From Carnegiea gigantea (taxonomy: Eukaryota > Streptophyta > Magnoliopsida > Caryophyllales > Cactaceae), in contig JAKOGI010003010.1 of NCBI GenBank assembly GCA_029747015.1, positions 1-64,000 on the forward strand: a stretch of 64,000 bases of DNA, in the 5' to 3' direction. Below the pieces are notes generated by a model, which had not been told where the DNA came from, ran no database searches, and was given only the letters and a program-made list of their open reading frames with translations. A program made the position numbers and the translations under genes. This document shows, one piece after another, positions 11,970-49,458 of this stretch (positions are counted from its first letter, which is position 1; the number at the start of each line of letters is the position of its first letter).

Positions 11970-11974
11970 CTAAA
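11970..11974. repeat. Left target-site duplication CTAAA
   Basis: CTAAA lies immediately before the first TGTTGTGATTTC of the array. The same five bases follow the last AACA of the array at 47,103-47,107. Five-base duplications are typical of LTR-retrotransposon integration. Confidence 0.85.
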
Positions 11975-13494
11975 TGTTGTGATTTCCCGCAAGCGTACGG
12001 TTTCCATTGTAGTAATTACGGATGTCGTCCTCAGGGATGGTTGTTAAATTTGATTAGCAAAAATTCTAAACTAAATTACAACGAGATGCTAATTAACGAA
12101 CTCTAAGGTTACGTTATTCTCCCAATTATTAGACTTAGTAAACAATATTAATTCATGGAATTATAAGCTCTAACTTACAAATACCGGAAACCAAAATAAG
12201 AATAAAGCACCAAAAAGTAAATAAGTTAAGCCTACCAACACATAGATGTAATGATTTGTTTTAATTCATTTAGCCAAGCAAAGCAGCAAATGAAAGCATA
12301 GCAATGAAAGCAGAGGAAACCTGAAACTCATAGCAGCAGAGCAAACGAGAAACGAAAGCAATGAATTTAGCCAACTTGAAGTCCGTGATTCTGGAAATGA
12401 AAGAAAACAGAAGAAAAGTAAAACTAAAGCCTAATTTTAGGAATGGAACAAAGCAATCCGATATAGGAATGGAAAAGTAACACTAAAACTAAAAAAATGG
12501 AAATTGAAGCTACTCTACTCTATGCTACTCCTCCTACTCGCCACTCGAACGCCTCTGCTCTCGACTTTTAAGCCCCTCCATTGAAGCTTTTCCCAGAACC
12601 CGTTTATTGCCCCTTTAGTTGCCTCCATTACTTCCTTATAACTCCTCTTAATTATGGTATTGATGGGAAACTAATAGCGAAGAGAGAGAGTGAGGTAACG
12701 GATGAGGGGAGGAGTAGGTGGAAAGGCTGCCCTGTTTTGTGGCCCTATTTGGGTCGCTGGGCGTAAAGAAGAAGAGTAACGGGATGGGTAACAGATAGTG
12801 AAATTATTATGATGAACGATGGAGGAAGATGAAGGTTGCCATGGCCGTTGATGATGGCCGAAGATGAAGCGTTGAGGGAGCAGGAAAAACTGCCCTGTTT
12901 GTCGGGCTTCCAGGTGCCGAGGTATGAGGGAGAAGAAGAGGAGGAGATGGGGGGTGCTGGGTCACGTGAGAGAGGCGTGGCCTCACTTAAGAAGAAGCAG
13001 GCTAGGCTTGGTCTGGGAAGAAGGCAGAGAACCGGGCCCAAAGAGAGGGAAAAAGAAATAGGAGAGAGGGAGAGAGACTGGGGCAGGCTGGGAAAAAAAA
13101 TGTTGGGTCGGCCCGTGTAACGAAAGAAATGAAAGAAGAGAAAGGGGGATAGAGAAAAGAAAAAGTACTGGGCTGGCAAATGGCTCGGTTAGGCCTGGGC
13201 CACGGTTCATTGGGCAGTTGGGCTTCAATCTGGAGGGCTGGTCCAATTGAGAAAGAGCAAACTGAATAAGAAGGGTGGATTGGGTTGCACGAATTGTGCG
13301 TGCTCCTCTTCCTTGTTTCTTTGTCTTACTTGATCTAATATCAAGCAAATTGAGTATCTTATTCAATTTTTCCAACTCCTCTGTAATCCTACAAAATAAA
13401 CAAAAAACAGTATTTAAATCCTAAATTAGTAATTTATTTCGAGCAAATATTGGGTAATAAAGGGTATAAAAATGTAATAATTTCAGGCTGAACA
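11975..13494 (-). repeat. LTR 1 (array-terminal 3' LTR)
   Basis: 1,520 bp, TGTTGTGATTTC...CTGAACA. Followed at 13,495-13,510 by aatacccccacaccta, the PPT complement. Its left end abuts the CTAAA duplication. Like the other LTRs it has a purine-rich tract near 12,680-13,150 and a conserved 'acttgatc(t/c)aatatcaagcaaattgag' stretch near the PPT side. Confidence 0.88.
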
Positions 13495-14955
13495 AATACC
13501 CCCACACCTAAGTTTCGTTCGTCCTCGAGTAAAACAAAGCTAAAAATACTAGAAAAAGAAAATAAAATTCCTAACTCACTTTCGTAGCAATCACGGCTGC
13601 ACTTAGTGCATGCAACAAGCCCTTTAAACCCCTATGTTACCCTTAGTGGATGAGTAGGGTCTCTTGAGGGTTTGCAGAAGATATACCCACAAAATCTATA
13701 AAAGAAAACATAAACAGAAACTTGAAAATCTTTTTTTAATTTTTTTTTCAAAAATTAATATATACAAAACTGAGAAAAGATATATACACACATTCTAATC
13801 AACTAAATCACCCATGTAGCAAAGATATTGGCATGCATATAAACAAAATGCACTCATCAAGGCTCTCCACCCCTGAATGACATCAAAGCACTTACTTTTC
13901 ACCCCACTGGACATCAAGACTTGGAATCCATCCCACTGCTCGAGTGCAAGTGTATCATTATCCAAGGGCTCAAGTTTACCAAAATCAAACTCAATCCCAC
14001 TTAACTGACACAAATTACATTATTGATTTATTAACATAGGAAGCAAGCTTTTCCAGTAGCAGGATTGCCTCAAAGGCTAACACCCAGTAGCACGTGCCTC
14101 AAAGGGTAATGCCCAACAGCGTATGCCTCAAAGGAATACTTGTCATTCCAAATTTTATTTCATTTCCCTTTTCCCGCATTTTTTCATTTTTTTCTTCATT
14201 TTCATTTTTTTTTGGGTTTTTTTCTTGAAATTCAAAGACAAACCAGAGTAATCACATCAAAGACAAGTGGGGGAGCCAATAATGGAAAACTAAAACCTTA
14301 AGACAATGAGGATGGTATAAATAGGGATTGGATTACACAGTGATAATGAACAAATAGGGTTAGAATCAGGGCTTAGAATGACACACAGAGGACAAAGACC
14401 TATCAAGCACATCACGCTTACGTACAGGCCAATAGTCAAAGCACAAGGCATTGAAGCTGATCAGAATAGATTCCCCAAAAACAAAATAGAAACTTTTTCA
14501 ATTTTCAAAATTTTTTCAATTTTTTTTTCAAAGTTTCCCCCACCCCCACACTTAAATCTCATAATGTCCTCATTGGAAGTGAAAAGAAACAGACAAAAGA
14601 CCAAAAACTAAAAAGAAAAATGAATATACAAAAAGAAGACTAAGACTCAAAAAGAAAGAAAAATGACATGACTCTAAAACTCAAAAAGAAAACAATAAAA
14701 ATAAAAGTCAGCCACAAATATATGCAAAAGAGGAAAAAAAAGAGATAAAGATGAACGATTATACTAGGTCAGGTGCAGAATTACACTTAAGCTATAGCCT
14801 TCAGAAATGCGCTCAAATAGAGGCATATGGAGCATCAGCCACTCCATATCGAATGCAACATTGCTACTTAAGTCAAAACTTGTTAAAGCGCGTAGCAGTT
14901 TATCAAACAAAGAAGCCTAACTCTCAATAAGCGTAATGCAATAGAGATTAAAGAG

Positions 14956-16330
14956 TCAGAGCCAAAATGAGTACATCCATCACAGCAATAAAGTACAAGT
15001 AAGGGCCCACTTCAACTTGTCAAATGTATGGTCCCAAACATCAAACAAGCAGATGTAATTCAAACTAGCCAGCTGGTGGGTCATTGGCCCAGAAATTGGG
15101 TTATCATGAATGAGCAGTGTAGGCAAAATACTGGGTGCAAAATCCACAAGTCTTTCAGTACCAAAATGTGCATGAATCTGGTTTAAAGCAAAATTCTTAG
15201 TGGCAATGCTCTCAGACTCAGCAAATTCAGACTTGCGATTTTCAAAAAGGAGGTTAATTCGGATGGGGCCCAAAGAAAAAGATTCATATTCAACACACAG
15301 GTTCTCATTCAAACCCACATTGACATCAAACCCACATGAAAAAGATTCATATTCTATAGAAAGAATATCATCGTCAAATTTTAAAGCAGTGGGTTCAAGT
15401 GGCTCCTCACATTACCTCTATAAAATAGGTTCTTTTGACTCTTCTACCTCATGATGCTCAAAGTCTATTGTGATGCTCAAATCTAACTCACTAGGGTTCC
15501 CACATTCATCACCCTCCTCAAACTCAAAAGAATCATTTAAAGTGGTGTGTGGGTGGGCAGAAACTAGGACATCCTCAATGACGTACGTAGGTAAGCTAGT
15601 GTGAGGTGCAAGATCTTGTGATAGATATGTAAGGAAGTCCCCCTCTTGCTCTGCACTGGGCAATGGCATATCATTATTCAAATTGAGCTGAGAGAGATAA
15701 GAGGGCTCAAAATCATCATAGAGACTAACTTCAGGCTTAGGAGATCCTAAACTAGAGTCACGCCCATAACAATTCTCCCTACTTTAATTAAAACATTGAG
15801 AATATTAAGCAATTCTCACTTTCATGTTCTCTATCATTTTATCAGTCAATTCATTTAGCTTCTTTTCAACACTTGCACAGGTAGCATCAATATAAGTACG
15901 AAAAGGGCAAGTAAGAACATCATGGTCAGAAGATTCTCAACATTCGCACAACACAGGAGACATATAAGAATAAGATGGGTCATATAAGTTTATAAAATGA
16001 TCCTGGGGCAAGGATTAGCAGGAAAAACAGACTCATTAGAAGTTCAATATCCAAAATTATTTTCACCTTGTTCAAACGAATAGGTATTCCAAGCTAGCTT
16101 TTCAAAGAAATCCCATACCTCATCTTGAGTTTTAGATAATAAACCTAGCACACCTCCAGGATAAATGGACTCAGTATAACCTCAAGATTCAGAATTCAGA
16201 CCCACAGCAATGACCTCATAAATTTTCCATTGTTGAAAATTCTGATTCAATTGCGCACGATAATCATCAAGTCACGATAAATTGCTCCAGAAAGGTCATG
16301 CTCGAATTGTGGGAAATTAAAAACTGGCAT
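14956..16330 (-). pseudogene. Gag-like frame in unit 1
   Basis: The most decayed gag copy. The segment matching 'YIESIYP' and 'FEKLAW' is recognisable on minus around 16,050-16,190 but has no long open frame. The acidic C-terminal part is open at 15,418-15,681 ('MNNDMPLPSAEQEGDFL...'), then interrupted by a stop at 15,418 and continued at 14,980-15,318. The zinc-knuckle second Cys codon is TGA, as in all units. Confidence 0.6.
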
Positions 16331-16909
16331 TCTTGAATCTAGTGTTTTTTTTTTTAATTTTAAGAATTTTTTAATTTTTTGGGGTTTTCAAGTTTTTAAT
16401 TTTTTTATTTTTTTAAGGAAAGAAAATGCATCTCGGACACTATTTGCAAACAAATGACTAAAACAAAAAGAAGAGACTCAAATAATTACGTGAACAAAAC
16501 AAAATAAACTAACAAAAATGAAACTATGCTGTCAAAATAAAAGAAATACCAAAATGACTAAAACATCACAACAAATATAAAATGAACACAAACACAAAAG
16601 AAGAGCATTTTTTAATTTTTTTTTTTCTCTTTGTTGCTGCTGCTTCTGTGCCTGTTTCCTACGGAACAACTAAATTGTTAGTCTCTTCTTTTTCTTTTTT
16701 TTTTCAAGTAGCAAAATTGCATGAAATAACAAAATTAAATTGACTCAAAGCTAAAACTGCAACTCAAATTAAAAATCAAAAATAATCCAAGTTAAAACCA
16801 ACTAACACACACAAAATCGAAAATCAAAAATATGAAACGAAAACGAAAATAAAATTGACGCGAACAACTAAATTAAGACTCGACTATGCAACCTAATTTC
16901 ACAATGCCA

Positions 16910-16927
16910 TCCCCGGCAACGGCGCCA
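16910..16927 (-). other. tRNA-Asp primer-binding site next to LTR 2
   Basis: The plus strand reads tccccggcaacggcgcca; minus reads TGGCGCCGTTGCCGGGGA. It matches the 3' end of plant tRNA-Asp(GTC), including CCA, and sits six bases from the LTR edge. Confidence 0.88.
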
Positions 16928-16933
16928 AAAACT

Positions 16934-18437
16934 TCTTGTGATTTCCCACAAGCATACGATTTTCATTGTAGTAATTACGGATGTCGTCCTCAAGGATGGT
17001 TGTTAAATTTGGTGATCAAAAATTCCAAACTAAATTACAACGAGATGCTAATTAATAAACTCCAAGGTTAAGTTATTCTCCCAATTATTAGACAAAGTAA
17101 ACAATATCAATTCCTGAAATTGTAAGCTCTAACTTGCAAATACCGGAAACCAAAATAAGAATGAAGCACCAAAAAGTAAATAAATTGAGCCTACCAACAC
17201 TTAGATGTAATGATTTGCTTTAACTCATTTAGCCAAACAAACTAGCAGATGAAAGCATAGCAACGAAAGCAGAACAAACTTGAAACTCATCGCAGCAGAG
17301 CAAACGAGAAACCAAAGCAACAAATCCAACCAACGTGAAGTCCATGATTCTAGAAATGAAAGAAAATAGAAGAAAAGTAAAACTAAAGCCTAATTCTGGG
17401 AATGGAACAAAGTCGCAGATGAAACAAGGCAATCTGATCTAGGAATAGAAAAGTAAAACTAAAACTAAAAAAATGGAAACTGAAGCAACTCCACTCTATG
17501 CTACTCCTCCTACTCGCCACTCGAATGCCTCTGCTCTTGACTTTTAAGCTTCTCCGTTGAAGCTTTGCCCAGGACCCATTCATTGCCCCTAGAGTTGCCT
17601 CCATTATTTCCTTGTAACTCCTCTTGATTATGGTATTGATAGGAAACTAATAGTGAAGAGAGAGAGCGAGGTAACAGATGAGGGGAGGAGTAGGTAGAAA
17701 GGCTGCCCTATTTTATGGCTCTATTTAGGTTGCTGGGCACAAAGAAGAAGAGTAACGGGATGGGTAACGGATAGTGAAATTATTATGATGAATGATGGAG
17801 GAAGATGAAGTGTTGAGGAAGGGGGAAAAACTGCCCTGTTTTTTGGGCTTCCCGGTGCCAAAGTATGAGCGAGAAGAAGAAGATGAGGAGATAGTGGGTG
17901 CTGGGTCATGTGAGAGAGGCGTGGCCTCACTTAAGAAGAAGCAGGCTGGGCTTGGTCTGGGAAGAAGGCAGAGAACCGGGCCCAAAGAGAGGGAAAAAGG
18001 AATAGGAGGGAGGGAGAGAGAGTGGGGCAGGCTGGGAAAAAAAATGTTGGGCCGGCCCGTGTAAGGAAAGAAATGAAGGAAGAGATAGGGGGATAGAGAA
18101 AAGAAAAAAAACTGGGCTGGCAAGTAGCCTAGTTGGGCCTGGGCCACAGTCTACCTGCAGCTGGGCTTCAGTCTGGAGGGCCGACCCAATTGAGAAAGAG
18201 CAAACTGAATAAGAAGGGTTGATTGGGTTGCACGGATTGGGCCTGCTCTTCTTCCTTGTTTCTTTGTCTTACTTGATCCAATATCAAGCAAATTGAGTAT
18301 CTTATTCAATTTTTCCAACTCTTCCGTAATCCTACAAAATAAACAAAAAACAGTATTTAAATCCTAAATTAGTAATTTATTTCAAGCAAATATTAAGTAA
18401 TAAAGGGTATAAAAATGTAATAATTTCAGGCTGGACA
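16934..18437 (-). repeat. LTR 2
   Basis: 1,504 bp. The first bases are TCTTGTG instead of TGTTGTG, and the end reads CTGGACA instead of CTGAACA, so both termini carry substitutions. The PPT complement acccccacat follows. Confidence 0.87.
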
Positions 18438-19901
18438 AATACCCCCACATCTAAGTTTTACTCGTCCTCGGGTAAAACAAAATTAAAAATACTAGAAAAA
18501 GAAAATAAAATTCCTAACCCACTTTTGTAGGAATCACGGTTGCACTTAGCGCGTGCAACAAGACCTTTAAACCCCTAGGTTACTCTTAGTGGATGAGTAA
18601 GGTCTCGTGAGGGTTCGCAAAAGATATACCCACAACATTAATAAAAGAAAACATAAACAAAAACTTGAAAATCTTTTTTTATTTTTTTTCCAAAAATGAA
18701 TATGTACAAAACTGAAAAAAGATATATACACACATTCTAATCAACTAAATCACCCATGTAGCAAAGATATTGGCATGCATATAAACAAAATGCACTCATC
18801 AAGGCTCTCTACTCCATAAATGACATCAAAGTACTAACCTTTCACCCCACTAGACATCAAGACTTGGAATCCATCCCAGTGCTCAAGTGTAAGTGTATCA
18901 TCATCCTAGGGCTCAGATTTACCAAAATCAAACTCAATCCTACTCGACTGACAAAAGACACATTATTGATTTATTAACATAGGAAGTAAGCTTTTCCAGT
19001 AGCAGTATTGCCTCAAAGGGTAACACCTAGCAGCACGTGCCTCAAAGGATAATGCCCAGCAATGCGTGCCTCAAAGGAATACTTGTCATTCCAAATTTTA
19101 TTTCATTTCCCTTTTCCCGCATTTTTCCATTCTTTTTCTTCGTTTTCATTTTGTTTTTTTGGTTCTTTTCATGAAATTCAAAGACAAACCAAAGTAATCG
19201 CATCAAAGACAAGTGGGGGAGCCAATAATAGAAAACTAAGACCTTAAGACAATGAGGATGATATAAATAGGGATTGCATTACACAGCGACAATGAACAAA
19301 TGGGGTTAGAATCAGGGCTTAGAATAACACACTGAGGACAAAGACCTATCAAGCACATCACGCTTACATACAGGCTAATAGTCAAAGCACAGGGCATTGA
19401 AGCTGATCAGAATAGATTACCCAAAAAGAAAACAGAAACTTTTTGGATTTCCAAAATTTTTTCAATTTTTTTTTTCAAAGTTTCCCCCACCCCCACACGT
19501 AAATCTCACAGTGTCCTCATCGGGAGTGAAAAGAAATAGACAAGAGAAAAAAAACAAAAAAGAAAAACGAATATACAAAAAGAAGGCTAAGACTCAAAAA
19601 GAAAGAAAAATGACATGACTCTAAAACTCAAGAAGAAAATAATAAAAATAAAAGACAGCCACAAATATATACAAACGAAAAGAAAAGGAGATAAAGATGA
19701 ACGATTATTCTAGGTCAGGTGTAGAATTACACTTAAGCTATAGCCTCTAGAAATGCACTCAAATAGAGGCATATGGAGCATCAGTCACTCCATATTGAAT
19801 GCAACATTGCTACTTAAATCAAAACTTGTTAGAGCACATAGCAGTTTATTAAACGAAGAAGCCCAACTCTCAATAAAAGTAATGCAATAGAGATTAAAGA
19901 G

Positions 19902-21276
19902 TCAGAGCCAAAATGAGTACATCCGCCATAGCAATAAAGCACCAGTAAGGGCCCACTTCAACTTGTCAAATGTATGGTCCCAAACATCAAACAAGCAGAA
20001 GTAATTCAAACTAGCCAGTTGGTGGGCCATCGGCCTAGAAATTGGGTTATCATGAATAAGAGGTGTAGGCAAAATAGCGGGTGCGAAAACCACAAGTCTC
20101 TGAGTACCAAAATGTGCATGAATCTGGTTTAAAGTAAAATTCTTAGTGGCGATCCTCTCAGACTCAACAAATTCAAACTTGCAATTTTCAAAAAGGAGGT
20201 CAATTCGGATGGGGTCAAAAGAAAAAGATTCATGTTCAACACACAGGTTCTCATTCAAACCCACATTGATATCGAACCCGCATGAAAAAGATTCATATTC
20301 TATAGAAAGAATATCATCGTCGAATTTTAAAGTAGTGGGTTCAAGTGGCTCCTCACATTGCCTCTGTAAAATAGGTTCTTCTGACTCTTCTATCTCATGA
20401 TGCTCAAAGTGAATTGTGATGCTCAAATCTAACTCACTAGGGGTCCCACATTTATCACCCTCCTCAAACTCAAAAGAATCATTTAAAGTGGTGTGTGGGC
20501 CGGCAGAAACTAGGACATCCTCAATGGCGTACGTAGGTGAGCTAGTGTGAGGTGCAAGGTCTTGTGATAGAGATGTAAGGGAGTCCCCCCTCTTGCTCTA
20601 AACTAGGTAAAGGCATATCATTATTTAAATCGGGCTGAGCGAGATAAGAGGGGTGAAAATCATTGTAGAGACTAACTTCAGGTTTAGGACATCCTAAACT
20701 AGAGTCAGGCTCATTACAATTCTCCCTACTTTAATAAACCATGAGAATATTAAGCAATTCTCACTTTCGTGTTCCCTATCATTTTATCAGTCAATTCATT
20801 TAGCTTCTTTTCAACACTTGCACAGGTAGCATCAATATAAGTACGAAAAGGGAAAGTAAGAACATCATGGTCAGAAGATTCTCAATATTCGCACACCACA
20901 GGAGACATATAAGAATAAGATGGGTCATATGAGTTCATAAACTGATCCTGGGGGAAGGACTAGCAGAAAAAACAAACTCATCAGAAGTTGGATATCCAAA
21001 ATTATTTTTGCCTTGTTCAAACGAATAGGTATTCCAAGCTAGCTTTTCAAAGAAATCCCATACCTCATGTTGAGTTTTAGATAATAAACCTAGCACTCCT
21101 CTAGGATAAATGGACTCAATATAACCCCAAGATTCAGAATTTAGACCCACGATAATGACCTCACAAATTTTCTATTTTTGAAAATTCTGATTCAATTGAG
21201 CACGATAATCATTAAGTCGTAATAAATAGCTCCAGAAAGGTTCATGCTCGAATAGTGGGATATTAAAAACTGGCAT
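19902..21276 (-). pseudogene. Gag-like frame in unit 2
   Basis: The C-terminal acidic part is open for 174 codons (19,902-20,426), ending 'RMYSFWL'. A frame break near 20,590 ('gtccccc' run, one extra C shared with unit 3) separates it from 'MPLP'. The core 'GLNSESWGYIESIYPRG...FFEKLAWNTYSFEQ' is open at 20,935-21,150. TGA replaces the second zinc-knuckle Cys. Confidence 0.6.
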
Positions 21277-21856
21277 TCTTGAATCTATTGTTTTTTTCAA
21301 ATTTAAGAATTTTTCAATTTTTTTGGATTTTCAAGTTTTTAATTTTTTTTTGCTTTTTTTAAGGAAAGAAAATGCATCTAGGATACTATTTACAAACCAA
21401 TGACTAAAACAAAAAGAAGAGACTCAAATAATTAAGTGAACAAAACAAAATAAACTAACAAAAATAAAACAATGTTCTCAAAATAAAAGAAGGACCAAAA
21501 TGACTCAAACATCACACAAAATATAAAATGAATACAAGCACAAAAGAAGAGCATTTTTTTAATTTTTTTCCGTCTTTGTTGCTGCTGCCTCTGTGCTTGT
21601 TTCCTGCGCAATAATCAAATTGTTAGTCTCTTCATTTTTTCTTTTTTTTTTCAAGTAGAAAAATCACATGAAACAGCAAAATTAAATTGACTCAAAGCTA
21701 AAACGGCAACTCAAATCAAAAATCAAAAATAATCCAAGTTAAATCAAAACCAACACACACAAAATCGAAAATCAAACATATGAAACGAAAACGAAAACAA
21801 AATTGATGAAACAACTAAATTAGGACTCAACTATGCAACCTCATTTCACAATGCCA

Positions 21857-21874
21857 TCCCCAGCAACGGCGCCA
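21857..21874 (-). other. Primer-binding site next to LTR 3 (one mismatch)
   Basis: The plus strand reads tccccagcaacggcgcca, one base different from the tRNA-Asp match seen at LTR 2 and LTR 4. Confidence 0.8.
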
Positions 21875-21880
21875 AAAACT

Positions 21881-23417: not shown

Positions 23418-26400
23418 AATACCCCCATACCTAATTTTTGCTCGTCCTCAAGTAAAATAAAACTAAAAATACTAGAAAAAGAAAACAAAATTCTTAACTC
23501 ACTTTCGTAGGAATCACAGTTAGCGCGTGCAACAAGCCCTTTAAACCCCTAGGTTACCCTTAGTGGATACGTAAGGTCTCTTGAGAATTTGCAGAAGATA
23601 TACGCATAAAATCTATAAAAGAAAACATAAACAGAAACTTGAAAGTCTTTTTTTAATTTTTGTTCAAAAATTAATATGTACAAAACTGAGAAAAGATATA
23701 TACACACATTCAAATCAACTAAATCACCCATGTAGCAAAGATATTGGCATGCATATAAACAAAATGCACTCATCAAGGCTCTCTACGTCATGAATGACAT
23801 CAAAGCACTGACTTTTCACCCCACTGGACATCAAGACTTTGAATCCATCCCAGTGCTCAAGTGCAAGTGTATCATCATCCTAGGGCTCAGGTTTACCAAA
23901 ATCAAACTCAATCCCACTCGACTAACACAAATTACAATATTGATTTATTAACATAGGAAGCAAGCTTTTCCAGTAGCAGTATTGCCTCAAAGGGTGACAC
24001 CTAGTAGCACGTGCTTCAAAAGGTAATGCCTAGCAACGCATGCCTCAAAGGAATATTTGACATTCCTAATTTTATTTCATTTCCCTTTTCTCGCATTCTT
24101 CCATTCTTTTTCTTCATTTTCATTTTTTTTTTTGGTTTTTTTCTTGAAATTCAAAGACAAACCAAAGTAATCACCTCAAAGACAAGTATGGGAGCCAATA
24201 ATAGAAAACTAAGACCGTAAGACAATGAGGATGACATAAATAGGGACTAGAGTACACAGCGATAATGAACAAATGGGGTTAGAATCAGGGCTTAGAATGA
24301 CACACAGAGGACAAAGACCTATCAAGCACATCACGCTTACATACAGGCTAATAGTCAAAGCACAGGGCATTAAAGCTAATCAGAATAGATTCTCCAAAAA
24401 CAAAACAGAAACTATTTGGATTTCCAAAATTTTTTCAAAGTTTCCCCCACCCCCACACTTAAATCTCACAATGTCCTCATTGGGAGTGAAAAGAAACAGA
24501 CAAGTGAAAAAAACTAAAAAGAAGAACGAATACACAACAAGAAGACTAAGACTCAAAAAGAAAGAAAAATGACATGACTCTAAAACTCAAAAAGAAAAAA
24601 ATAAAAATAAAAGACAGCCACAAATATATACAAAAGAAAAAAAAAAAAAGGAGATAAAGATGAACGATTATTCTGGGTCAGGTGTAGAATTACACTTAAG
24701 CTATAGCCTCCAGAAATGCGCTCAAATAGAGGCATATAGAGCATCAGCCACTGCATATCGAATGCAACATTGCTACTTAAATCAAAACTTGTTAGAGCAC
24801 GTAGCAGTTTATTAAACGAAGAAGCCCAACTCTCAATAAAAGTAATGCAATAGAGATTAAAGAGTCAGAGCCAAAATGAGTACATCCACCATAGCAATAA
24901 AGCACCAGTAAGGGCCCACTTCAACTTGTCAAATGTATGGTCCCAAACATCAAACAAGCAGATGTAATTCAAACTAGCCAGTAGGTAGGCCATCGGCCTA
25001 GAAATTGGGTTATCATGAATAAGCGGTGTAGGCAAAATAGTGGGTGCAGAATCCACAAGTCTCTGAGTACCAAAATGTGCATGAATCTGGTTTAAAGTAA
25101 AATTCTTAGTGGCAATCCTCCCAGACTCAACAAATTCAGACTTACAATTTTCAAAAAGGAGGTCAATTCGGATGGGGTCAAAAGAAAAAGGTTCATATTC
25201 AACACACAGGTTCTCATTCAAACCCACATTGACATCGAACCTGCATGAAAAAGATTCATATTCTATAGAAAGAATATCATCGTCGAATTTTAAAGTAGTG
25301 GGTTCAAGTGGCTCCTCACATTGCCTCTATAAAATAGGTTCTTCTGACTCTTCTATCTCATGATGCTCAAAGTCAATTGTGACGCTCAAATCTAACTCAT
25401 TAGGGGTCCCACATTCATCACCCTCCTCAAACTCAAAAGAATCATTTAAAGTGGTGTGTGGGTCGGCAGAAACTAGGACATCCTCAATGGCGTATGTAGG
25501 TGAGCTAGTGTGAGGTGCAAGGTCTTGTGATAGAGATGTAAGGGAGTCCCCCCTCTTGCTCTACTCTAGGCAAAGGCATATCATTATTTAAATCGGGCTG
25601 AGCGAGATAAGAGGGCTCAAAATCATTGTAGAGACTAACTTCAGGTTTAGGACATCCTAAACTGGAGTCAGGCTCATTACAATTCTCCTTACTTTAATAA
25701 ACCATTGAGAATATTAAGCAATTCTCACTTGCATAGGTAGCATCAATATAAGTACGAAAAGGGCAAGCAAGAACATCATGGTCAGAAGATTCTCAATATT
25801 CGCACATCACAGGAGACATATAAGAATAAGATGGGTCATATGAGTTTATAAACTGATCCTGGGGGGAAGGACTAGCAGGAAAAGCAGACTCATTAGAAGT
25901 TGGATATCCAAAATTATTTTTACCTTGTTCAAACGAATAGGTATTCCAAGCTAGCTTTTCAAAGAAATCCCACACCTCATGTTGAGTTTTAGATAATAAA
26001 CCTAACACACCTCCAGGATAAATGGACTCAATATAACCCCAAGATTTAGAATTTAGACCCACATCAATGACCTCACAAATTTTCCATTTTTGAAAATTCT
26101 GATTCAGTTGAGTACGATAATCATTAAGTCGCGATAAATGGCTCCAGAAAGGTTCACGCTTGAATTGTGGGAAATTAAAAAATGGCATTCTTGAATATAG
26201 TGTTTTTTTCAACTTTATGAATTTTTCAATTTTTTTGGATTTTCAAGTTTTTAATTCTGTTTAGTTTTTTTTAAGGACAGAAAATGCATCTAGGACACTG
26301 TTTACAAACCAATGACTAGAACAAAAAGAAGAGACTCAAATAATTAAGTGAACAAAACAAAATAAACTAACAAAAATAAAACTATGCTGCCAAAATAAAA

Positions 26401-26701
26401 GAAAGACCAAAATGACTCAAACATCACACAAGCACAAAAGAAGAGCATTTTTTATTTTTTTTCCTCTTTGTTGCTTTCTCCTTCTGTGCCTGTTTCCTAC
26501 GCAATAACCAAATTGTTGGTCTCTTCTTCTTTTTTTTTTTTCAAGTAGCAAAATCACATGAAATAGCAAAATTAAATTAACTCAAAGCTAAAACTGCAAC
26601 TCAAATCAAAAATCAAAAATAATCTAAGTTAAAACTAAACCAATACAAACAAAATCAAAAATCAAAAATGTGAAACGAAAACAAAAACGAAATTGACGCA
26701 A
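23418..26701 (-). mobile_element. Internal region 3, ends at a deletion join
   Basis: Has the normal PPT side next to LTR 3, but its 5' (right) end stops at gacgcaa and joins directly to the interior of unit 4. The rest of the leader, PBS and LTR are missing. A further deletion near 25,728 removes part of the segment around 'KKLNELTDKM'. Confidence 0.8.
24865..26188 (-). pseudogene. Gag-like frame in unit 3
   Basis: The core is open at 25,793-26,212 ('MPFFNFPQFKREPFWSHL...YIESIYPGG...FFEKLAW'). TGA at the zinc-knuckle Cys is followed by a small deletion. The C-terminal part is open at 24,865-25,227, with TAG ('cta' on plus near 25,328) interrupting the acidic part. Confidence 0.6.
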
Positions 26702-32612: not shown

Positions 32613-33479
32613 TCAGCCCCACTTGACATCAAGACTTAGAATCCATCCCAGTGCTCGAGTTCAAGTGTATCATCATCCCAGGGCTCAGGTTTACCAAAAT
32701 CAAACTCAATCCTACTCGACTGGCACAAGACACATTATTGATTTATTAACATAGGAAGCAAGCTTTTCCAGTAGTAGTATTGCCTCAAAGAGTAACGCAC
32801 AGTAGCACGTGCCTCAAAGGGTAATGCCCAGTGGCGCATGCCTCGAAGGAATACTTGTCATTCCAAATTTTATTTCATTTCCCTTTTTCCGCATTTTTTC
32901 ATTCTTTTTCTTCATTTTCATTTTTTTTTTTTGGTTTTTTTCTTGAAATTCAAAGACAATCCAAAGTAATCGCATTAAAGACAAGTGGGGGAGCCAATAA
33001 TGGAAAACTAAGACCTTAAGACAATGACGACGATATAAATAGGGATTGGATTACACAGCGATAACGAACAAATTGGGTTAGAATCAGGGCTTAGAATGAC
33101 ACACTGAGGACAAAGACCTATCAAGCACATCACGCTTACATACAGGCTAATAGTCAAAGCATAGGGCGTTGAAGCAGATCAGAATAGATTCCCCAAAAAC
33201 AAAACAGAAATTTTTGGATTTCCAAAATTTTTTCAATTTTTTTTCAAAGTTTGCCCCACCCCCACACCTAAATCTCACAATGTCCTCATTGGGAGTGAAA
33301 AGAAATAGACAAGAGAAAAAAAACCTAAAAAGAAAAATGAATACACAAAAAGAAGACTAAGAGTCAAAAAGAAAGAAGAATGACATGACTCTAAAACTCA
33401 AAAAGAAAACAATAAAAATAAAAGACAGCCACAAATATATACAAAAGAAAAAAAAAGGACATAAAGATGAACGATTATA

Positions 33480-35047
33480 CTAGGTCAGGTGCAAAATTAC
33501 ACTTAAGCTATAGCCCCCAGAAATGCGCTCAAATAGAGGTATATGGAGCATCAGCCACTTCATATCGAATGCAACGTTGCTACTTAAATCAAAACTTGTT
33601 AGAGCGCGTAGCAGTTTATCAAACAAAGAAGCCCAACTCTCAAAAAAAGTAATGCAATAGAGATTAAAGAGTAAGAGCCAAAATGAGTACATCCACCATA
33701 GCAATAAAGCACAAGTAAGGGTCCGCTTCAACTTGTCAAATGCATAGTCCCAAACGTCAAACAAGCAGGTGTAGTTCAAACTAGCCAGCTGGTGGGTCAT
33801 TGACCTAGAAATTGGGTTATCATGAATGAGTGGTGTCGCCAAAATAGTGGGTGCAAAATCCACAAGTCTCTAAGTACCAAAATGTACATGAATCTAGTTT
33901 AAAGTAAAATTCTTAGTGGCAATGCTCCCAGACTCAACAAATTCAAACTTGCAATTTTCAAAAAGGAGGTCAATTCGGATGGGGTCAAAAGAAAAATATT
34001 CATATTCAACACACAGGTTCTCATTCAAACCCACATTGATATCAAACCCACATGAAAAAGATTCATATTCTATACAAAGAATATCATCGTCGAATTTTAA
34101 AGTAGTCGGTTCAAGTGGCTCCTTACATTCCCTCTGTAAAATAGGCTCTTCTGACTCTTCTATCTCATGATGCTCAAAGTCAATTGTGACGCTCAAATCT
34201 AACTTACTAAGGTTCCCACATTCATCACCCTCCTCAAACTCAAGAGAATCATTTAAAGTGGTATATAGGTCGGCAGAAACTAGGACATCCTTAATGACGT
34301 ACATAGGTGAGCTAGTGTGAGGTGCAAGGTCTTGTGATAGAGATGTAAGGATGTCCCCCTCTTGCTCTACACTAGGCAAAGGCATATCATTATTCAAATC
34401 GGGCTGAGCGAGATAAGAGGGCGCAAAATCATCATAGAGACTAATTTCAGGTTTAGGAGATCCTAAACTAGAATCAGGCTCATTACAATTCTCCCTACTT
34501 TAATTAAAACATTAAGAATATTAAGCAATTCTCACTTTCATGTTCTCTATCATTTTATCCGTCAATTCATTTAGCTTTTTTTCAGCACTTGCACAGGTAG
34601 CATCAATATAAGTACAAAAAGGGCAAGTAAGAACATCATGGTTAGAAGATTCTCAATATTTGCACAACACAGGAGACATATAAGAATAAGATGGGTCATA
34701 TGAGTTTATAAAATGATCCTGGGGGGAAGGATTAGCAGGGAAAACAGACCCATCAGAAGTTGGATAGCCAAAATTATTTTTACCTTGTTCAAACGGATAG
34801 GTATTCCAAGCTAGCTTTTCAAAGAAATCCCATACCTCATCTTGAGTTTTAGATAATAAACCTAACACACCTCCATAATAAATGGACTTAATATAACCCC
34901 AAGATTCAGAATTCAGACCCACAGCAATGACCTCACAAATTTCCCGTTTTTGAAAATTCTGATTCAATTGAGCACGATAATCATTAAGTCGCAATAAATA
35001 GCTCCAGAAAAGTTCATGCTCGAATTGTGGGAAATTAAAAACTGGCA
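33480..35047 (-). pseudogene. Gag-like frame in unit 6 (best preserved)
   Basis: From ATG 35,047 the core is open to TGA 34,653-34,655: 'FWSYLLRLNDYRAQLNQNF', 'EICEVIAVGLNSESWGYI', 'GGVLGLLSKTQDEVWDFFE', 'KLAWNTYPFEQ'. This matches the Retrotrans_gag type of plant Ty3/gypsy elements. The TGA falls exactly at the second Cys of a C-x2-C-x4-H-x4-C zinc knuckle ('CKY', stop, 'ESSNHDVLTC'). Three more TAA codons occur around 34,500-34,530, then the same frame is open for 167 codons (33,894-34,397) with an acidic, repeat-like C-terminus. Gag binds RNA and forms the particle; this copy cannot be full length. Confidence 0.65.
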
Positions 35048-35622
35048 TTCTTGAATCTAGTGTTTTTTTCAACTTTAAGAATTTTTCAATTTTTTTGGAT
35101 TTTCAGGTTTTTAATTTTTTTTAGTTTTTTTTAAGGAAAGAAAATGCATCTAGGACACTGTTCACAAACCAATGACTAAAACAAAAAGAAGAGACTCAAA
35201 TAATTAAGTGAACAAAACAAAATAAATTGACAAAAATAAAACTATGCTACCAAAATAAAAGAAAGACCAAAATGACTCAAACATCATACAAAATATAAAA
35301 TGAACACAAGCACAAAAGAAGAGCATTTTTTATTTTTTTTTCTCTTTGTTGCTGCTGCTTTTGTGCCTATTTCCTACGCAATAACCAAATTGTTAGTCTC
35401 TTCTCATTTTTTTTTTTCAAGTAGCAAAATCATATGAAATAGCAAAATTAAATTGACTCAAAGCTAAAACTGCAACTCAAATCAAAAATCAAAATAATCT
35501 AAGTTAAAACTAAACCAACGCACACAAAATCGAAAATCAAAAATATGAAACGAAAACGAAAACGAAATTGACGCAAACAACTAAATTAAGACTCGACTAT
35601 ACAACCTAATTTCACAATGCCA

Positions 35623-35640
35623 TCCCCGGCAACGGCGCCA
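35623..35640 (-). other. tRNA-Asp primer-binding site next to LTR 4
   Basis: Exact 18-base match, same as the one at 16,910-16,927, six bases from the LTR. Confidence 0.88.
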
Positions 35641-35646
35641 AAAACT

Positions 35647-37187: not shown

Positions 37188-40100
37188 AATACCCCCACAC
37201 CTAAGTTTTGCTCGTCATCGAGTAAAGCAAAACTACAAATACTAGAAAAAGAAAATAAAATTCCTAACTCACTTTCGTAGGAATCACAGTTGCACTTAGC
37301 GCGTGCAACAAGCCCTTTGAACCCCTAGGTTACCCTTAGTGGATGAGTAAGGTCTCGTGAAGGTTTGCAGAAGATGTACCCATAAAATCTATAAAAGAAA
37401 ACATAAACAGAAACTTGAAAATCTTTTTTTAATTTTTTTTCAAAAATTAATATATACAAAACTGAGAAAAGATATATACACACATTCTAATCAACTAAAT
37501 CACCATGTAGCACAGATATTGGCATGCATATAAAGAAAATCCACTCATCAAGGCTCTCTACCCCATGAATGACATCAAAGCATTAACTTTTCACCCCACT
37601 GGACATCAAGACTTGGAATCTATCCCAGTGCTCGAGTGCAAGTGTATCATCATCCTAGGGCTCAGGTTTACCAAAATCAAACTCAATTCCACTTGACTGA
37701 CACAAATTACATTATTGATTTATTAACATAGGGAGCAAGCTTTTCCAGTAGCAGCATTGTCTCAAAGGGTAACACCCAGTAGCACGTGCCTCAAAGGGTA
37801 ATGCCCAGTAGCGCATGCCTCAAAGGAATACTTATCATTCCAAATTTTATTTCATTTCCCATTTCCCGCATTTCTCCATTCTTTTTCTTCATTTGCATTT
37901 TTTTTTTTTTGTTTTTTTCTTGGAATTCAGAGACAAACCAAACTAATCGCATCAAAGACAAGTGGGGGAGCCAACAATGGAAAACTAAGACTTCAAGACA
38001 ATGAGGATGATATAAATAGGGATTGGATTATACGGCGATAATGAATAAATGGGGTTAGAATCAGGGTTTAGAATGACACACTGGGGACAAAGACCTATCA
38101 AGCACATCACGCTTATATACAGGCTAATAATCAAAGCACAGGATCTTGAAGCTGATCAGAATAGATTCCCCAAAAACAAAACAGAAACTTTTTGGATTTC
38201 CAAAATTTTTTCAATTTTTATTCAAAGTTTCTTCCACCCCCACACCTAAATCTCACAATGTCCTCATTGGGAGTGAAAAGAAACAGACAAGAGGAAAAAA
38301 AAATCAAAAAGAAAAATGAATACACAAAAAGAAGACTAAGACTCAAAAGGAAAGAAAAATGACATGACTCTAAAACTCAAAAAGAAAACAATAAAAATAA
38401 CAGACAGCCACAAATATATACAAAAGAAAAAAAAAAGGAGATAAAGATGAACGATTGTACTAGGTCCGGTGCAGAATTATACTTAAGCTATAGCCTCCAG
38501 AAACGCGCTCAAATAGAGGCATATGGAGCATCAGCCACTCCATATCGAATGCAACATTGCTACTTAAATCAAAACTTGTTAGAGCGCGTAGCAGTTTATT
38601 AAACAAAGAAGCCCAACTCTCAATAAAAGTAATGCAATAGAGGTTACAGAGTCAGAGCCAAAATGAGTACATTCCACCATAGCAATAAAGCACAAGTAAG
38701 GGCCCGCTTCAACTTGTCAAATGCATGGTCCCAAACATCAAATAAGTAGATGTCATTCAAATTAGCTAGCTGGTGAGTCATTGGCCTAGAAATTAGGTTA
38801 TCATGAATGAGTGGTGTAGGCAAAATAGTGGGTGCAAAATCCACAAGTCTCTGAGTACCAAAATGTGCATGAATCTAGTTTAAAGCAAAATTCTTACTGG
38901 CAATGCTCCCAGACTCAATAAATTCAGACTTGTAATTTTCAAAAAGGAGGTCAATTCGAATGGCGTCAAAAGAAAAAGATTCATATTCAACACACAGGTT
39001 CTCATTCAAACCCTCATTGACATCAAACCCACATGAAAAAGACTCATATTCTATAGAAAGAATATCATCGTCAAATTTTAAAGTAGTGGGTTCAAGTGGC
39101 TCCTAACATTGCCTCTGTAAAATAGGTTCTTCTGACTCTTCTATCTCATGATGCTCAAAGTCAATTGTGACGCTCAAATATAACTCACTAGGGTTCCCAC
39201 ATTCATCGCCCTCCTCAAACTCAAAAGAATCATTTAAAGTGGTATGTGGGTCGGCAGAAACTAGGACATCCTCAATGACGTACATAGGTAAGCTAGTGTG
39301 AGCTGCAAGGTATTGTGATAGAGATGTAAGGAAGTCCCCCTCTTGCTCTACACTAGGCAAAGGCATATCAGTATTCAAATCGGGCTGAGCGAGATAAGAG
39401 AGCTCAAAATCATCATAGAGACTAACTTCAAGTTTAGGAGATCCTAAACTAGAGTCAGGCTCATTACAATTCTCCCTACTTTAATTAAAACATTGAGAAT
39501 ATTAAGCAATTCTCACTTTCATGTTCTCTATTATTTTATCAGTCAATACCTTTAGCTTCTTTTCAACACTTGCACAGGCAGCATCAATATAAGTACGAAA
39601 CGGGCAAGTAAGAACATCATGGTCAGAAGATTCTCAATATCCGCACAACACAGGAGACATATAAGAATAAGATAGGTCATATGACTTTATAAAATGATCC
39701 TGGGGGGAAGGATTAGTAGGAAAAACAGACTCATTAGAAGTTGGATATCCAAAATTATTTTTACCTTGTTCAAACGAATAGGTGTTCCAAGCTAGCTTTT
39801 CAAAGAAATCCCATACCTCATCTTGAGTTTTAGATAATAAACCTAGCATACCTCCAGGATAAATGGACTCAATATAACCCCAAGATTCAGAATTCAGGCC
39901 CACAGTAATGACCTCATAAATTTTTCATTTTTGAAAATTCTGATTCAATTGAGCACGATAATCATTAAGTCGCGATAAATAGCTCCAGAAAGATTCATGC
40001 TCGAATTGTGGGAAATTAAAAACTGGCATTCTTGAATCTAGTGTTTTTTTTCAATTTTAAGAATTCTTCAATTTTTTTGGATTTTCAAGTTTTTAATTTT

Positions 40101-40597
40101 TTTTAGTTTTTTTTAAGGAAAGAAAATGCATCTAGAACACTATTTACAAACCAATGACTAAAACAAAAAGAAGAGACTCAAATAATTAAGTGATCGAAAC
40201 AAAATAAACTAACAAAAATAAAACTATGCTGTCAAAATAAAAGAAAGACCAAAATGACTCAAACATGACACAAAATATAAAATGAACACAAACACAAAAG
40301 AAGAGCATTTTTTATTTTTTTTTTTCTCTTTTTTGCTGCTGCTTCTGTGCCTGTTTCCTATGCAATAACCAAATTGTTAGTCTCTTCTTTTTGTTTTTTT
40401 TTTTTCAAGTAGCAAAATCACATGAAATAGCAAAATTAAATTGACTCAAAGCTAAAACTGCAACTCAAATCAAAAATCAAAAATAATCTAAGTTAAAACT
40501 AAACCAACAAACACAAAATCGAAAATCAAAAATATGAAACAAAAACGAAAACGAAATTGACGCAAACACCTAAATTAAGACTCGACTATCAAAAACT
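37188..40597 (-). mobile_element. Internal region 7, PBS deleted
   Basis: 3.41 kb. At 40,583-40,597 the text goes from 'ctcgactat' straight to 'caaaaact', so the 'gcaac' to 'ggcg' part holding the PBS (present beside LTRs 2-4) is gone. Confidence 0.8.
38652..40029 (-). pseudogene. Gag-like frame in unit 7
   Basis: Core open at 39,634-39,903; zinc-knuckle TGA at about 39,632; acidic part at 39,103-39,378, ended by TAG ('ctaacattgcc' on plus). A 1-bp insertion near 38,671 ('acattccacc') shifts the end, so the usual 'MYSFWL' terminus is lost. Confidence 0.6.
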
Positions 40598-42134: not shown

Positions 42135-45100
42135 AATACCTCCACACCTAAGTTTTGCTCGTCCTCGAGTAAAACAAAATTAAAAATACTAGAAAAAGAA
42201 AATAAAATTCCTAACTCACTTTCGTAGGAATCACGGTTGCACTTAGCACGTGCAACAAGCCCTTCAAACCCCTAGGTTACCCTTAGTGGATGAGTAAGGT
42301 CTCGTGAGGGTTTACAGAAGATATACCCACAAAATCTATAAATGAAAACATAAACAGAAACTTAAAAATCTTTTTTAATTTTTTTTTCAAAAATTAATAT
42401 ATACAAAACTGTGAAAAGATATATACACACATTCTAATCAACTAAATCACCCATGTAGCACAGATATTGGCATGCATATAAAGAAAATGTACCCATGAAG
42501 GCTCTCTACCCCATGAATGACATAAAAGCACTAACTTTTCACCCCACTGGACATCAAGACTTGGAATCCATCCCAGTGCTCGAGTGCAAGTGTATCATCA
42601 TCCTAGGGCTCAGGTTCACCAAAATCAAACTCAATCCCACTCGACTGACACAAATTACATTATTGATTTATCAACATAGGAAGCAAGCTTTTTCAGTAGC
42701 AATATTGCCTCAAAGGGTAACACCCAGTAGCACCTGCCTCAAAGAGTAATGCCCAGTAACGCATGCCTCAAAGGAATACTTGTCATTCCAAATTTTATTT
42801 CGTTTCCCTTTTCCCGTATTTTTCCATTCTTTTTCTTCATTTTCATTTTTTTTTTGGGTTTTTTTCTTAAAATTCAGAGACAAACCAAACTAATCGCATC
42901 AAAGACAACTGGGGGAGCCAATAATGGAAAACTAAGACCTTAAGACAATGAGGATGATATAAATAGGGATTGGATTACACCGCGATAATGAACAAATGGG
43001 GTTAAAATCAGGGCTTAGAATGACACACTGAGGCCAAAGACCTATCAAGCACATCACGCTTACATACAGGCTAATAGTCAAAGCACAGGGCATTGAAGTT
43101 GATCAGAATAGATTCCCCAAAAACAAAACAGAAACTTTTTGGATTTCCAACATTTTTTCAATTTTTTTTTCAAAGTTTCCCCCACCCCCACACCTAAATC
43201 TCACAATGTCCTCATCGGGAGTGAAAAGAAACAGACAAGAGAAAAAAAAACTAAAAAGAAAAACGAATATACAAAAAGAAGGCTAAGACTCAAAAAGAAA
43301 GAAAAATGACATGACTCTAAAACTCAAGAAGAAAACAATAAAAATAAAAGACAGCTACAAATATATACAAAAGAAAAAAAAAAAAAGGAGATAAAGATGA
43401 ACGATGATACTAGGTCAGGTGCAGAATTACACTTAAGCTATAGCCTCCAGAAATGCGCTCAAATAGAGGCATATGGAGCATTAGCCACTCCATATCAAAT
43501 GCAACATTGCTACATAAATCAAAACTTGTTAGAGCGCGTAGCAGTTTATCAAACAAAGAAGTCCAACTCTCAATAAAAGTAATGCAATAGAGATTAAAGA
43601 GTCAGAGCCAAAATGAGTACATCCACCATAGCAATAAAGCACAAGTAAGGGCCCGCTTTAACTTGTCCAACGCATGGTCCCAAACATCAAACAAGCAGAT
43701 GTAATTCAAACTAGCCAGTTGGTGGGTCATTGGCCTAGAAATTGGGTTATCATGAATGAGTGGTGTAGGTAAAATAGTGGGTGCAAAATCCACAAGTCTC
43801 TGAGTACCAAAATGTGCATGAATATAGTTTAAAGCAAAATTCTTAGTGGCAATGCTCCCAGACTCAACAAATTCAGACTTGCAATTTTCAAAAAGGAGGT
43901 CAATTCAGATGGGGTCAAAAGAAAAAGATTCATATTCAATACACAGGTTCTCATTCAAACCCACATTGACATCAAACCCACATGAAAAAGATTCATATTC
44001 TATAGAAAGAATATCATCGTCGAATTTTAAAGTAGTGGGTTCAAGTGGCTCCTCACATTGCCTCTGTAAAATAGGTTCTTCTGACTCTTCTATTTCATTA
44101 TGCTCAAAGTCAATTGTGACGCTCAAATCTAACTCATAGGGTTCCCACATTCATCACCCTCCTCAAACTCAAAAGAATCATTTAAAGTGGTGTGTGGGTC
44201 GGCAGAAACTAGGGCATCCTCAATGACGTACGTAGGTGAGCTAGTGTGAGGTGCAAGGTCTTGTGATAGAGATGTAAGAAAGTCCCCCTCTTGCTCTACA
44301 CTAGGCAAAAGCATATCATTATTCAAATCGGGCTGAGCGAGATAAGAGGACTCAAAATCATCATATAGACTAACTTTAGGTCTAGGAGATCCTAAACTAA
44401 AGTCAGACTCATTACAATTCTCCCTACTTTAATTAAAACATTGAGAATATTAAGCAATTCTCACTTTCATGTTCTCTATCATTTTATCAGTCAATTCATT
44501 TACCTTCTTTTCAACACTTGCACAGGTAGCATCAATATAAGTACGAAAAGGGCTAGTAAGAACATCATGGTCGGAAGATTCTCAATATTCGCACAACACA
44601 AGAGGCACATAAGAATAAGATGGGCCATATGAGTTTATAAAATGATTCTGGGGGGAAGGATTAGCAGGAAAAACAGACTCATCAGAAGTTGGATATCCAA
44701 AATTATTTTTACCTTGTTCAAACAAATAAGTATTCCAAGCTAGTTTTTCAAAGAAATCCCATACCTCATCTTGAGTTTTAGATAATAAACCTAGAATACC
44801 TCTAGGATAAATAGACTCAATATAACCCCAAGATTCAGAATTCAGACCCACAGCAATGACCTCACAAATTTTTCATTTTTGAAAATTCTGATTCAATTGA
44901 GCACGATAATCATTAAGTGGCGATAAATAGCTCCAGAAAGGTTCATGCTCGAATTGTGGGAAATTAAAAACCGGCATTCTTGAATCTAGTGTTTTTTTTC
45001 AATTTTAAGAATTTTTCAATTTTTTTGGATTTTTAAGTTTTTAATTTTTTTTAGTTTTTTTTTAAGGAAAGAAAATGCATCTAGGATACTATTTACAAAC

Positions 45101-45560
45101 CAATGACTAAAACAAAAAGAAGAGACAAATAATTAAGTGAACAAAACAAAATAAACTAACAAAAATAAAACTATGCTGTCAAAATAAAAGAAAGACCAAA
45201 ATGACTCAAACATCACACTAAATATAAAATGAACACAAACACAAAAGAAGAGCATTTTTTTTTTCTCTTTGTTGCTGCTGCTTCTGTGCTTGTTTCCTGC
45301 GCAATAACCAAATTGTTAGTCTCTTCTTCTTTTTTTTTTTCAAGTAGCAAAATCACATGAAATAGCAAAATTAAATTGACTCAAAGCTAAAACTGCAACT
45401 CAAATCAAAAATCAAAAATAATCTAAGTTAAAACTAAACCAACACAAACAAAATCGAAAATCAAAAATGTGAAACGAAAACGAAAATGAAATTGACACAA
45501 ACAACTAAATTAAGACTCGACTATACAACCTAATTTCACAATGTCATCCCCGACAAAACT
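42135..45560 (-). mobile_element. Internal region 8, PBS truncated
   Basis: 3.43 kb. Next to LTR 6 the PBS reads 'tccccgacaaaact': the inner part is deleted. As LTR 6 is the array-terminal 5' LTR, the array as a whole lacks a working primer site at its 5' end. Confidence 0.8.
43602..44977 (-). pseudogene. Gag-like frame in unit 8
   Basis: Core open at 44,582-44,851, stop TGA at the zinc-knuckle Cys. The acidic part is split by a 2-bp loss near 44,138 ('ctcatagggttcc' where others have 'ctcactagggttcc') into 44,129-44,326 and 43,905-44,150. The end is open at 43,602-43,793 with the usual 'MYSFWL' stop. Confidence 0.6.
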
Positions 45561-47102
45561 TGTTGTGATTTCTCGCAAGCGTACGATTTTCATTATTGTA
45601 ATTACGGATGTCGTCCTCAGGGATGGTTGTTAAATTTAGTTGCCAAAAATTCTAAACTAAATTACAACGAGATGCTAATTAACAAACTCCAAGGTTAAGT
45701 TATTCTCCCAATTATTAGACTAAGTAAACAACATTAATTCATGGAATTGTAAGCTCTAACCTACAAATACCGGAAACCAAAATAAGAATGAAGCACCAAA
45801 AAGTAAATAAGTTGAGCCTACCAACAGTTTGATGTAATGATTTGCTTTAATTCATTTAGCAAAACAAAGTAGCTGATGAAAGCATAGCAACGAAAGCAGA
45901 GCGAACTTGAAACTCATAGCAACAGAGCAAACGAGAAACAAAAGCAACGAATTCAGCCAACTTGAAGTCCATGATTCTGGAAATGAAAGAAAACAGAAGA
46001 AAAGTAAAACTAAAGCCTAATTTTGGGAATGGAACAAAGTCACAGATGAAACAAGGCAATCCGATCTAGGAATGGAAAAGTAAAACTAAAACTAAAAAAA
46101 TGAAAATTGAAGCTACTCTACTCTATGCTACTCCTCCTACTTGCCACTCGAACGCCTCTGCTCTCGACTTTTAAGCCGCTCCGTTGAAGCTTTGCCCAAA
46201 ACCCATTCATCGCCCCTTCAGTTGCCTCTATTATTTTCTTGTAACTCCTCTTGATTATGGTATTGATGGGAAACTAATAGTGAAGAGAGAGAGTGAGGTA
46301 ACGGATGAGGGGAGGAGTAGGTGGAAAGGCTGCCCTGTTTTATGGCTCTATTTGGGTCGCTGGGCACAAAGAAGAAGAGTAACGGGATGGGTAACGGATA
46401 GTGAAATTATTACGATGAATGATGGAGGAAAATGAAGGTTGCCATGGCCGTTGATGATGGAGGAAGATGAAGCGTTAAGGGAGGGGGGAAAATTGCCTAG
46501 TTTTTCGGGCTTCCAGGTGCCGAGGTATGAGGGAGAAGAAGAAGATGAGGAGATGGGGCGTGTGCTGGGTCACGTGAGAGAGGCGTGGCCTCACTTAAGA
46601 AGAAGCAGGCTATGCTTGGTTTGGAAAGAAGGCAGAGAACTGGGCCCAAAGAGAGGGAAAAGGAAATAGGAGGGAGGGAGAGAGACTGGGGCAGGCTGGG
46701 GAAAAAAATGTTGGGCCGGCCCGTGTAAGGAAAGAAATAAAGGCAGAGAAAGGGAGATAGAGAAAAGAAAAAGAGCTGGGCTGGCAAATGGCCTGGTTGG
46801 GCCTGGGCCACGGTCTGCTGGGGAGCTAGGCTTCAGACTGGAGGGCTGATCCAATTGAGAAAGAGCAAACTGAATAAGAAGGGTGGATTGGGTTGCACGG
46901 ATTGGGCCTGCTCTTCTTCCTTGTTTCTTTGTCTTACTTGATCCAATATCAAGCAAATTGAGCATCTTATTCAATTTTTCCAACTCTTCCGAAATCCTAC
47001 AAAATAAACAAAAAACAGTATTTAAATCCTAAATTAGTAATTTATTTCGAGCAAACATTAGGTAATAAAGGGTATAAAAATGTAATAATTTCATGCTGAA
47101 CA
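45561..47102 (-). repeat. LTR 6 (array-terminal 5' LTR)
   Basis: 1,542 bp, TGTTGTG...CTGAACA, immediately followed by CTAAA. Confidence 0.88.
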
Positions 47103-47107
47103 CTAAA
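47103..47107. repeat. Right target-site duplication CTAAA
   Basis: Matches 11,970-11,974. The related unoccupied sequence at 48,766-48,775 reads 'gagctaaactgaat' with a single CTAAA. Confidence 0.85.
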
Positions 47108-48489: not shown

Positions 48490-48508
48490 GGTTTTGTACT
48501 GAGAAACC

Positions 48509-49403: not shown

Positions 49404-49404
<1 letters not shown>

Positions 49405-49458
<54 letters not shown>

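Follow-up and report, generated by a model that had tools for sequence, protein, structure and literature searches.

How six long terminal repeats (LTRs) and eight internal regions of a non-autonomous retrotransposon came to lie head to tail inside one target duplication is the question raised by contig JAKOGI010003010.1 of the cactus Carnegiea gigantea (assembly GCA_029747015.1), whose first 64,000 nucleotides are the window analysed here. The answer favoured, with a probability of about 0.6, is a single insertion followed by quick unequal exchange between LTRs, by later amplification of an internal region that had lost its LTR together with an exchange between the internal regions I2 and I3, and by independent decay of the copies.

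A single insertion read on the minus strand

Self-comparison of the window displayed a single block of direct repeats at 11,975-47,102, composed of six LTRs (L1 to L6, 1504-1542 bp) and eight internal regions (I1 to I8, with a common core of about 2.96 kb) of one LTR retrotransposon, oriented alike over about 35,000 bases with a unit of about 5 kb, which bears out the head-to-tail arrangement described in the original prediction. On one side of the inner LTRs, a G-rich stretch ending in GTATT on the minus strand, the polypurine tract (PPT), was found at all five edges. On the other side the primer-binding site (PBS), TGGCGCCGTTGC[C/T]GGGGAT placed six bases past the LTR end, was whole at three of five edges, being deleted next to L5 and partly deleted next to L6, so that the prediction of a PBS or PPT at the inner edges stands entirely for the PPT and only in part for the PBS. 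The placement of both signals implies that the element reads on the minus strand, with L6 as its 5' LTR and L1 as its 3' LTR. The two lost PBS sites (edges at 40597 and 45560) correspond to deletions with different end points, and the PBS contains the palindrome GGCGCC.

The pentanucleotide CTAAA, claimed earlier to mark the outer edges alone, does flank the array on both sides and is found at none of the 10 inner LTR edges, which read AAACT on the PBS side (five of five) and AATAC on the PPT side (five of five). By chance, two random flank 5-mers match at a frequency of 0.0016 (320/200,000 draws). Alignment of the joined flanks to the window recovered a paralogous stretch at 48,749-49,148, 1.6 kb away, which spans the insertion point and holds a single CTAAA, its similarity covering 30 bases on the left, CTAAA included, and about 325 on the right. 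The left arm of this empty-site test is short because the similarity of the paralog stops there; 20 of the 25 bases left of the paralog CTAAA match, as counted by eye in the alignment. Taken together, the restriction of CTAAA to the outer edges and its single copy in the paralog establish the array as one insertion with a real target site duplication (TSD), in agreement with the prediction.

The count of eight internals was also correct, but LTRs do not stand between all of them: I3, I4, I5 and I6 are consecutive and meet directly at three LTR-less junctions (J) at about 26,700, 29,645 and 32,612. The core of J, about 37 bases, is identical at all three when compared by eye. Considering that the normal core-to-core interval is 1975-2016 bp (four measurable cases, from coordinates), J would equal a deletion of about 2.0 kb spanning an LTR along with the PBS leader and the PPT tail that adjoin it on its two sides. 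A 29-bp minisatellite of 2.3-2.8 copies is listed in seven of the eight internals (14053, 19009, 23983, 26857, 32781, 37745 and 42706), I5 being the sole one with no listed copy.

Divergence, coding capacity and surroundings of the units

The six LTRs differ from each other by 6.96-9.23% (15 pairs; 90.8-93.0% identical), with a mean Kimura two-parameter distance of 0.085, which would correspond to an age of 3.3 million years at 1.3e-8 substitutions per site per year or of 6.1 million years at 7e-9, both being assumed plant rates. Two-state LTR sites comprise 257 singletons and 44 shared sites (12 columns with more states were set aside). A test of 40 shared sites against 2000 column shuffles showed them to be distributed among groups much as in the shuffled columns (P = 0.60 by best group, 0.63 by sum of squares). 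The divergence tree proposed with the original prediction shows no LTR split with support above 75, the largest LTR group holds 6 sites and private changes number 33-53 per LTR. With at most 6 grouped sites against 33-53 private ones, the units that bear LTRs probably split from each other during roughly the first tenth of their existence; they arose close together in time.

The internal regions, in the same type of tree, do resolve I4, I5 and I6 (support 100). These three are 4.2-5.1% apart (3 pairs) compared with 5.4-8.3% for the other 25 pairs, and they have 21 derived sites in common (core columns 4-2276 of 2987), private changes per internal core being 39-84. Each of them follows a J, and their closer kinship places the amplification of the J-bearing internals later than the LTR-bearing units. 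A further 25 derived sites are common to I2 and I3 (columns 45-2313), which are closest over about 1.5 kb at core columns 745-2257, a tract reached in 0 of 200 shuffles and patterned as expected of conversion or double exchange. Once the I4-I6 and I2/I3 groups are removed, 71 shared sites are left, and no group among them holds more than 6 (P = 0.26 for the maximum, 0.01 for the sum of squares). A break between I4 and I6 near column 2770 (2 of 200 shuffles) reflects the divergence of I4 from the other copies there.

Transitions per site per copy amounted to 0.126 at CG, 0.085 at CHG, 0.034 at CHH and 0.017 at A/T positions in the LTRs, and to 0.111, 0.073, 0.035 and 0.017 respectively in the internal cores, a pattern as expected of DNA that would have been methylated. 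The units are decaying independently, and homogenisation, if any, ceased long ago. Satellite DNA is a long homogenised array of near-identical monomers; here, the eight internals are 4.2-8.3% apart and the six LTRs 7.0-9.2%. The suggestion that the array is a satellite in the making is thus contradicted by this distance of 4-9% between copies and by the shuffle-like spread of the shared LTR sites.

Regarding coding capacity, the units carry a broken frame termed gag-like from inspection of the sequence, no database match naming it, with three in-frame stops common to all eight units. Metagenome proteins include 47 relatives of one piece of this frame and 34 of another, and these relatives read on past the first shared stop, two of the nine matched at that stop ending within one residue of it (a stop or a contig end being alike possible). 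A CX2CX4HX4C knuckle is present in 13 of the 81 protein relatives and in none of the eight array units. Pfam gave no match at E 0.01 for the 15 internal open reading frame (ORF) pieces scanned, with no reverse transcriptase and no pol match among them; four relatives gave Pfam hits below curated cut-offs only, and one protein query found no IMG/VR relatives. Since the stops occur in all eight units while the relatives continue, the founder was probably coding-defective already at insertion and, with no pol match in the scanned pieces, would likely have been mobilised in trans. These results support the earlier designation of the element as non-autonomous. A gag-only non-autonomous element of the TR-GAG type has LTRs and a recognisable gag domain and no pol. 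Selection on the frame after insertion left no sign in its second part, where the ratio of nonsynonymous to synonymous polymorphism (pN/pS) is 0.64, between the 0.55 and 0.74 of the wrong frames of that stretch; the first part, which has no wrong-frame control, gave 0.81.

Features of the array and of its empty-site paralog in the window.
Feature	Positions	Strand	Remarks
TSD, left copy	11970..11974		CTAAA
LTR L1	11975..13494	-	3'-most in element sense; outer end adjoins TSD
Internal I1	13495..16933	-	PPT beside L1; whole PBS at about 16927 beside L2
LTR L2	16934..18437	-	35-column deletion
Internal I2	18438..21880	-	PBS at about 21874; exchanged stretch of about 1.5 kb in common with I3
LTR L3	21881..23417	-	
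Internal I3	23418..26700	-	ends at LTR-less junction J
Internal I4	26701..29645	-	J on both sides; no flanking LTR
Internal I5	29646..32612	-	J on both sides; no flanking LTR
Internal I6	32613..35646	-	J at low-coordinate side; whole PBS at about 35640 beside L4
Gag-like reading frame in I6	33483..35102	-	broken; 3 stops inside common to 8 of 8 units
LTR L4	35647..37187	-	
Internal I7	37188..40597	-	PBS deleted
LTR L5	40598..42134	-	
Internal I8	42135..45560	-	PBS partly deleted
LTR L6	45561..47102	-	5'-most in element sense
TSD, right copy	47103..47107		CTAAA
Empty-site paralog	48749..49148	+	host sequence crossing the insertion point; one CTAAA

Outside the array, the flanks at 4971-9771 and 48111-53504 are diverged duplicates of each other that match in five collinear blocks at 66.5-77.8% identity. 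With the array subtracted they are about 8.0-8.6 kb apart, and the array therefore lies in a host segment that was duplicated locally. Short arrays of a 22-bp unit of type TTGGTGATCAGTA are numerous across the flanks, in both orientations (300-800, 4257-4351, 10497-10762, 47226-47445, 48920-49201, 52221-52275 and 55143-55918); the unit is nearly missing within the retrotransposon array, which holds one of 27 TTGGTGATCA matches. Two long ORFs occupy 58520-60670 on the minus strand, that at 58520-59476 matching Transposase_32, a putative plant transposon protein. On the same strand, 60860-63670 holds a Ty1/copia-type pol broken into several ORFs, with an SH3-like retroviral polymerase domain in 62293-63147 and RVT_2 in 60860-61699 only below cut-off.

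Proposed history and its alternatives

In the history proposed here, a coding-defective, non-autonomous LTR retrotransposon with LTRs of about 1.54 kb, presumably moved by proteins acting in trans, inserted once on the minus strand and created the CTAAA duplication. Soon after, misalignment of sister chromatids or homologues may have allowed unequal exchange between their LTRs, by which LTR-plus-internal units were added head to tail within the target duplication made at insertion. An illegitimate deletion of about 2.0 kb would then have taken out an LTR together with the ends beside it, joining two internals at J, and later homologous exchange between internals may have copied the J-internal unit into I4, I5 and I6, with a stretch of about 1.5 kb exchanged between I2 and I3. 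Independent decay followed, most change per site falling at CG and CHG cytosines.

Several observations weigh against so simple a scheme. A star simulation with four site classes gave a mean of 30.3 shared LTR sites with a 95% bound of 39, compared with 43 observed, an excess that means slight structure or unmodelled rate variation among the LTRs. The LTR tree also has a split, at support 75, that opposes L1 and L6 to the four inner LTRs. Among I1, I2, I6, I7 and I8, three groups of 10 shared sites, all including I2, exceed a 95% bound of 7, hence the internals do not form a clean star and, given also the sum-of-squares P of 0.01, some further exchange among them is likely. The crossover between I3 and I6 expected for the expansion of J was looked for and not found. 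Finally, a star does not distinguish a rapid series of exchanges from the insertion of a single concatemer.

The array, or most of it, could indeed have arrived ready-made, as a replication concatemer integrated by ordinary integrase with one TSD and derived from transcription of a one-LTR circle or from strand transfer between packaged RNAs. Such an entry fits the near-simultaneous origin of the six LTRs and the one TSD; it is treated as an open route in a 2025 study of rice (PMC11899658), and template switching has been proposed for Cassandra arrays (PMC7215508). On the other hand, the product would be of the order of 25-30 kb, which by general knowledge is large for a retrotransposon particle, and recombination did act at this locus, as seen in the later growth of I4-I6 and the exchange of I2/I3. 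A literature search on one-LTR or rolling-circle routes returned no match. A ready-made entry is a less likely alternative. Its strictest form, in which reverse transcription yielded a concatemer of five or more LTR-internal units that entered in one step and was edited by recombination only afterwards, appears a little less likely still; if true, the array would count as a single retrotransposition product of exceptional size.

It is improbable that the array is much older and that frequent unequal exchange maintained its uniformity, in which case the star would date the end of homogenisation rather than the start of the array. Freezing after homogenisation would also yield a star, and the slightly greater distance of L1 from the other LTRs (7.6-9.2%), like the L1 and L6 split, is in that direction. 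The outer LTRs, less reached by unequal exchange, should however be clearly more diverged in that case, whereas L6, at 7.2-7.8% to the others, is no more divergent than the inner LTRs (inner pairs 7.0-9.0%). Moreover, only 5 sites unite L1 with L6, and we consider this signal insufficient to demonstrate that homogenisation had gone on for long beforehand.

An assembly error that brought dispersed copies together is very improbable, because the longest exact repeat within the array is 157 bp, which leaves no long identical stretch for an assembler to collapse, because every LTR and internal core carries its own private changes, and because the TSD agrees at both outer ends. Least credible of all, independent nested or adjacent insertions of related elements joined later would suit dispersed family copies 4-9% apart, but they are rejected on the inner LTR edges, which lack a TSD, border LTRs shared between neighbours and have PPT- or PBS-side sequence throughout, and on the TSD common to the two outer ends, of which the empty-site paralog has a single copy; the original preference for later growth or concatemer insertion over such independent events is thereby upheld.

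Relation to known tandem retrotransposons

Tandem LTR retrotransposons that share LTRs and have a single 5-bp TSD around them have been described as common and widespread among plants, with 66 candidates in one rice genome (28 of them clearly tandem, including 10 whose TSDs are perfect), 266 in a rice pangenome and others in Arabidopsis, almond and cotton (PMC11899658). Four Arabidopsis elements have more than three LTRs (PMC5379124), and two elements of Wukong, a small maize element, have six and seven (PMC4528315). The claim that such arrays are unusual as a kind is therefore not supported.

Like the TLI loci of Morales-Diaz et al. 2025 (PMC11899658), the Carnegiea array alternates LTRs and internals with an LTR at both ends and has one 5-nt TSD with no inner ones, as the empty-site paralog agrees. 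The two rice loci detailed there have three LTRs and two internals, compared with six and eight here, and the three LTR-less junctions between I3 and I6 depart from the TLI pattern; repeats of this kind were absent from the descriptions of tandem elements compared, as far as their available text goes and with no search aimed at the point. In addition, 80% of the rice tandems have LTRs more than 95% identical, compared with 90.8-93.0% here, although rice TLI1, at 85-89%, is also old by this measure, and the 28 curated rice cases encode conserved retrotransposon domains (PMC11899658), none of which was found in the Carnegiea array. We file the array as a new, large and old member of this class published in 2025 (PMC11899658).

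Other families share some of these traits. TA-TRIMs and Wukong are likewise non-autonomous and form LTR-sharing arrays (L3I2, L5I4; up to 7 LTRs in Wukong; PMC4717578, PMC4528315), and the TA-TRIMs shown carry 5-bp TSDs, but TRIM units measure less than 1 kb compared with about 5 kb here (PMC4717578). Cassandra builds long LTR and internal arrays with at least 12 LTRs, from small elements whose LTR, unlike this one, holds a 5S-related pol III promoter sequence (PMC7215508). Athena, a peanut element that is non-autonomous and lacks reverse transcriptase, has the same 17-base PBS-like stretch in its listed conserved sequence; it is the sole match that a literature search for that string returned, the comparison covers the stretch alone and, unlike the present array, Athena is not described as tandem in the text available (PMC5904367). 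Membership of the Ty3/gypsy Tat, Ogre or Athila lineages is judged by reverse transcriptase phylogeny, and the pieces scanned here contain no reverse transcriptase. Ogre-derived satellites are also retrotransposon sequence turned tandem; they grow, however, from short tandem repeats in the 3' untranslated region, whereas the unit here is made of whole internals and no homogenisation was seen (PMC7004042).

The origin of tandem LTR retrotransposons, by unequal recombination or by complex insertion, was left as an open question in the 2025 study (PMC11899658). Thanks to the age of the Carnegiea array, enough private changes have accumulated in its units for events at one locus to be ordered: the LTR units came at about the same time, and then a fused internal repeat was amplified and a stretch was exchanged between two units. 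Judging from this locus, arrays with shared LTRs may also survive over millions of years and be neither homogenised nor reduced to a solo LTR.

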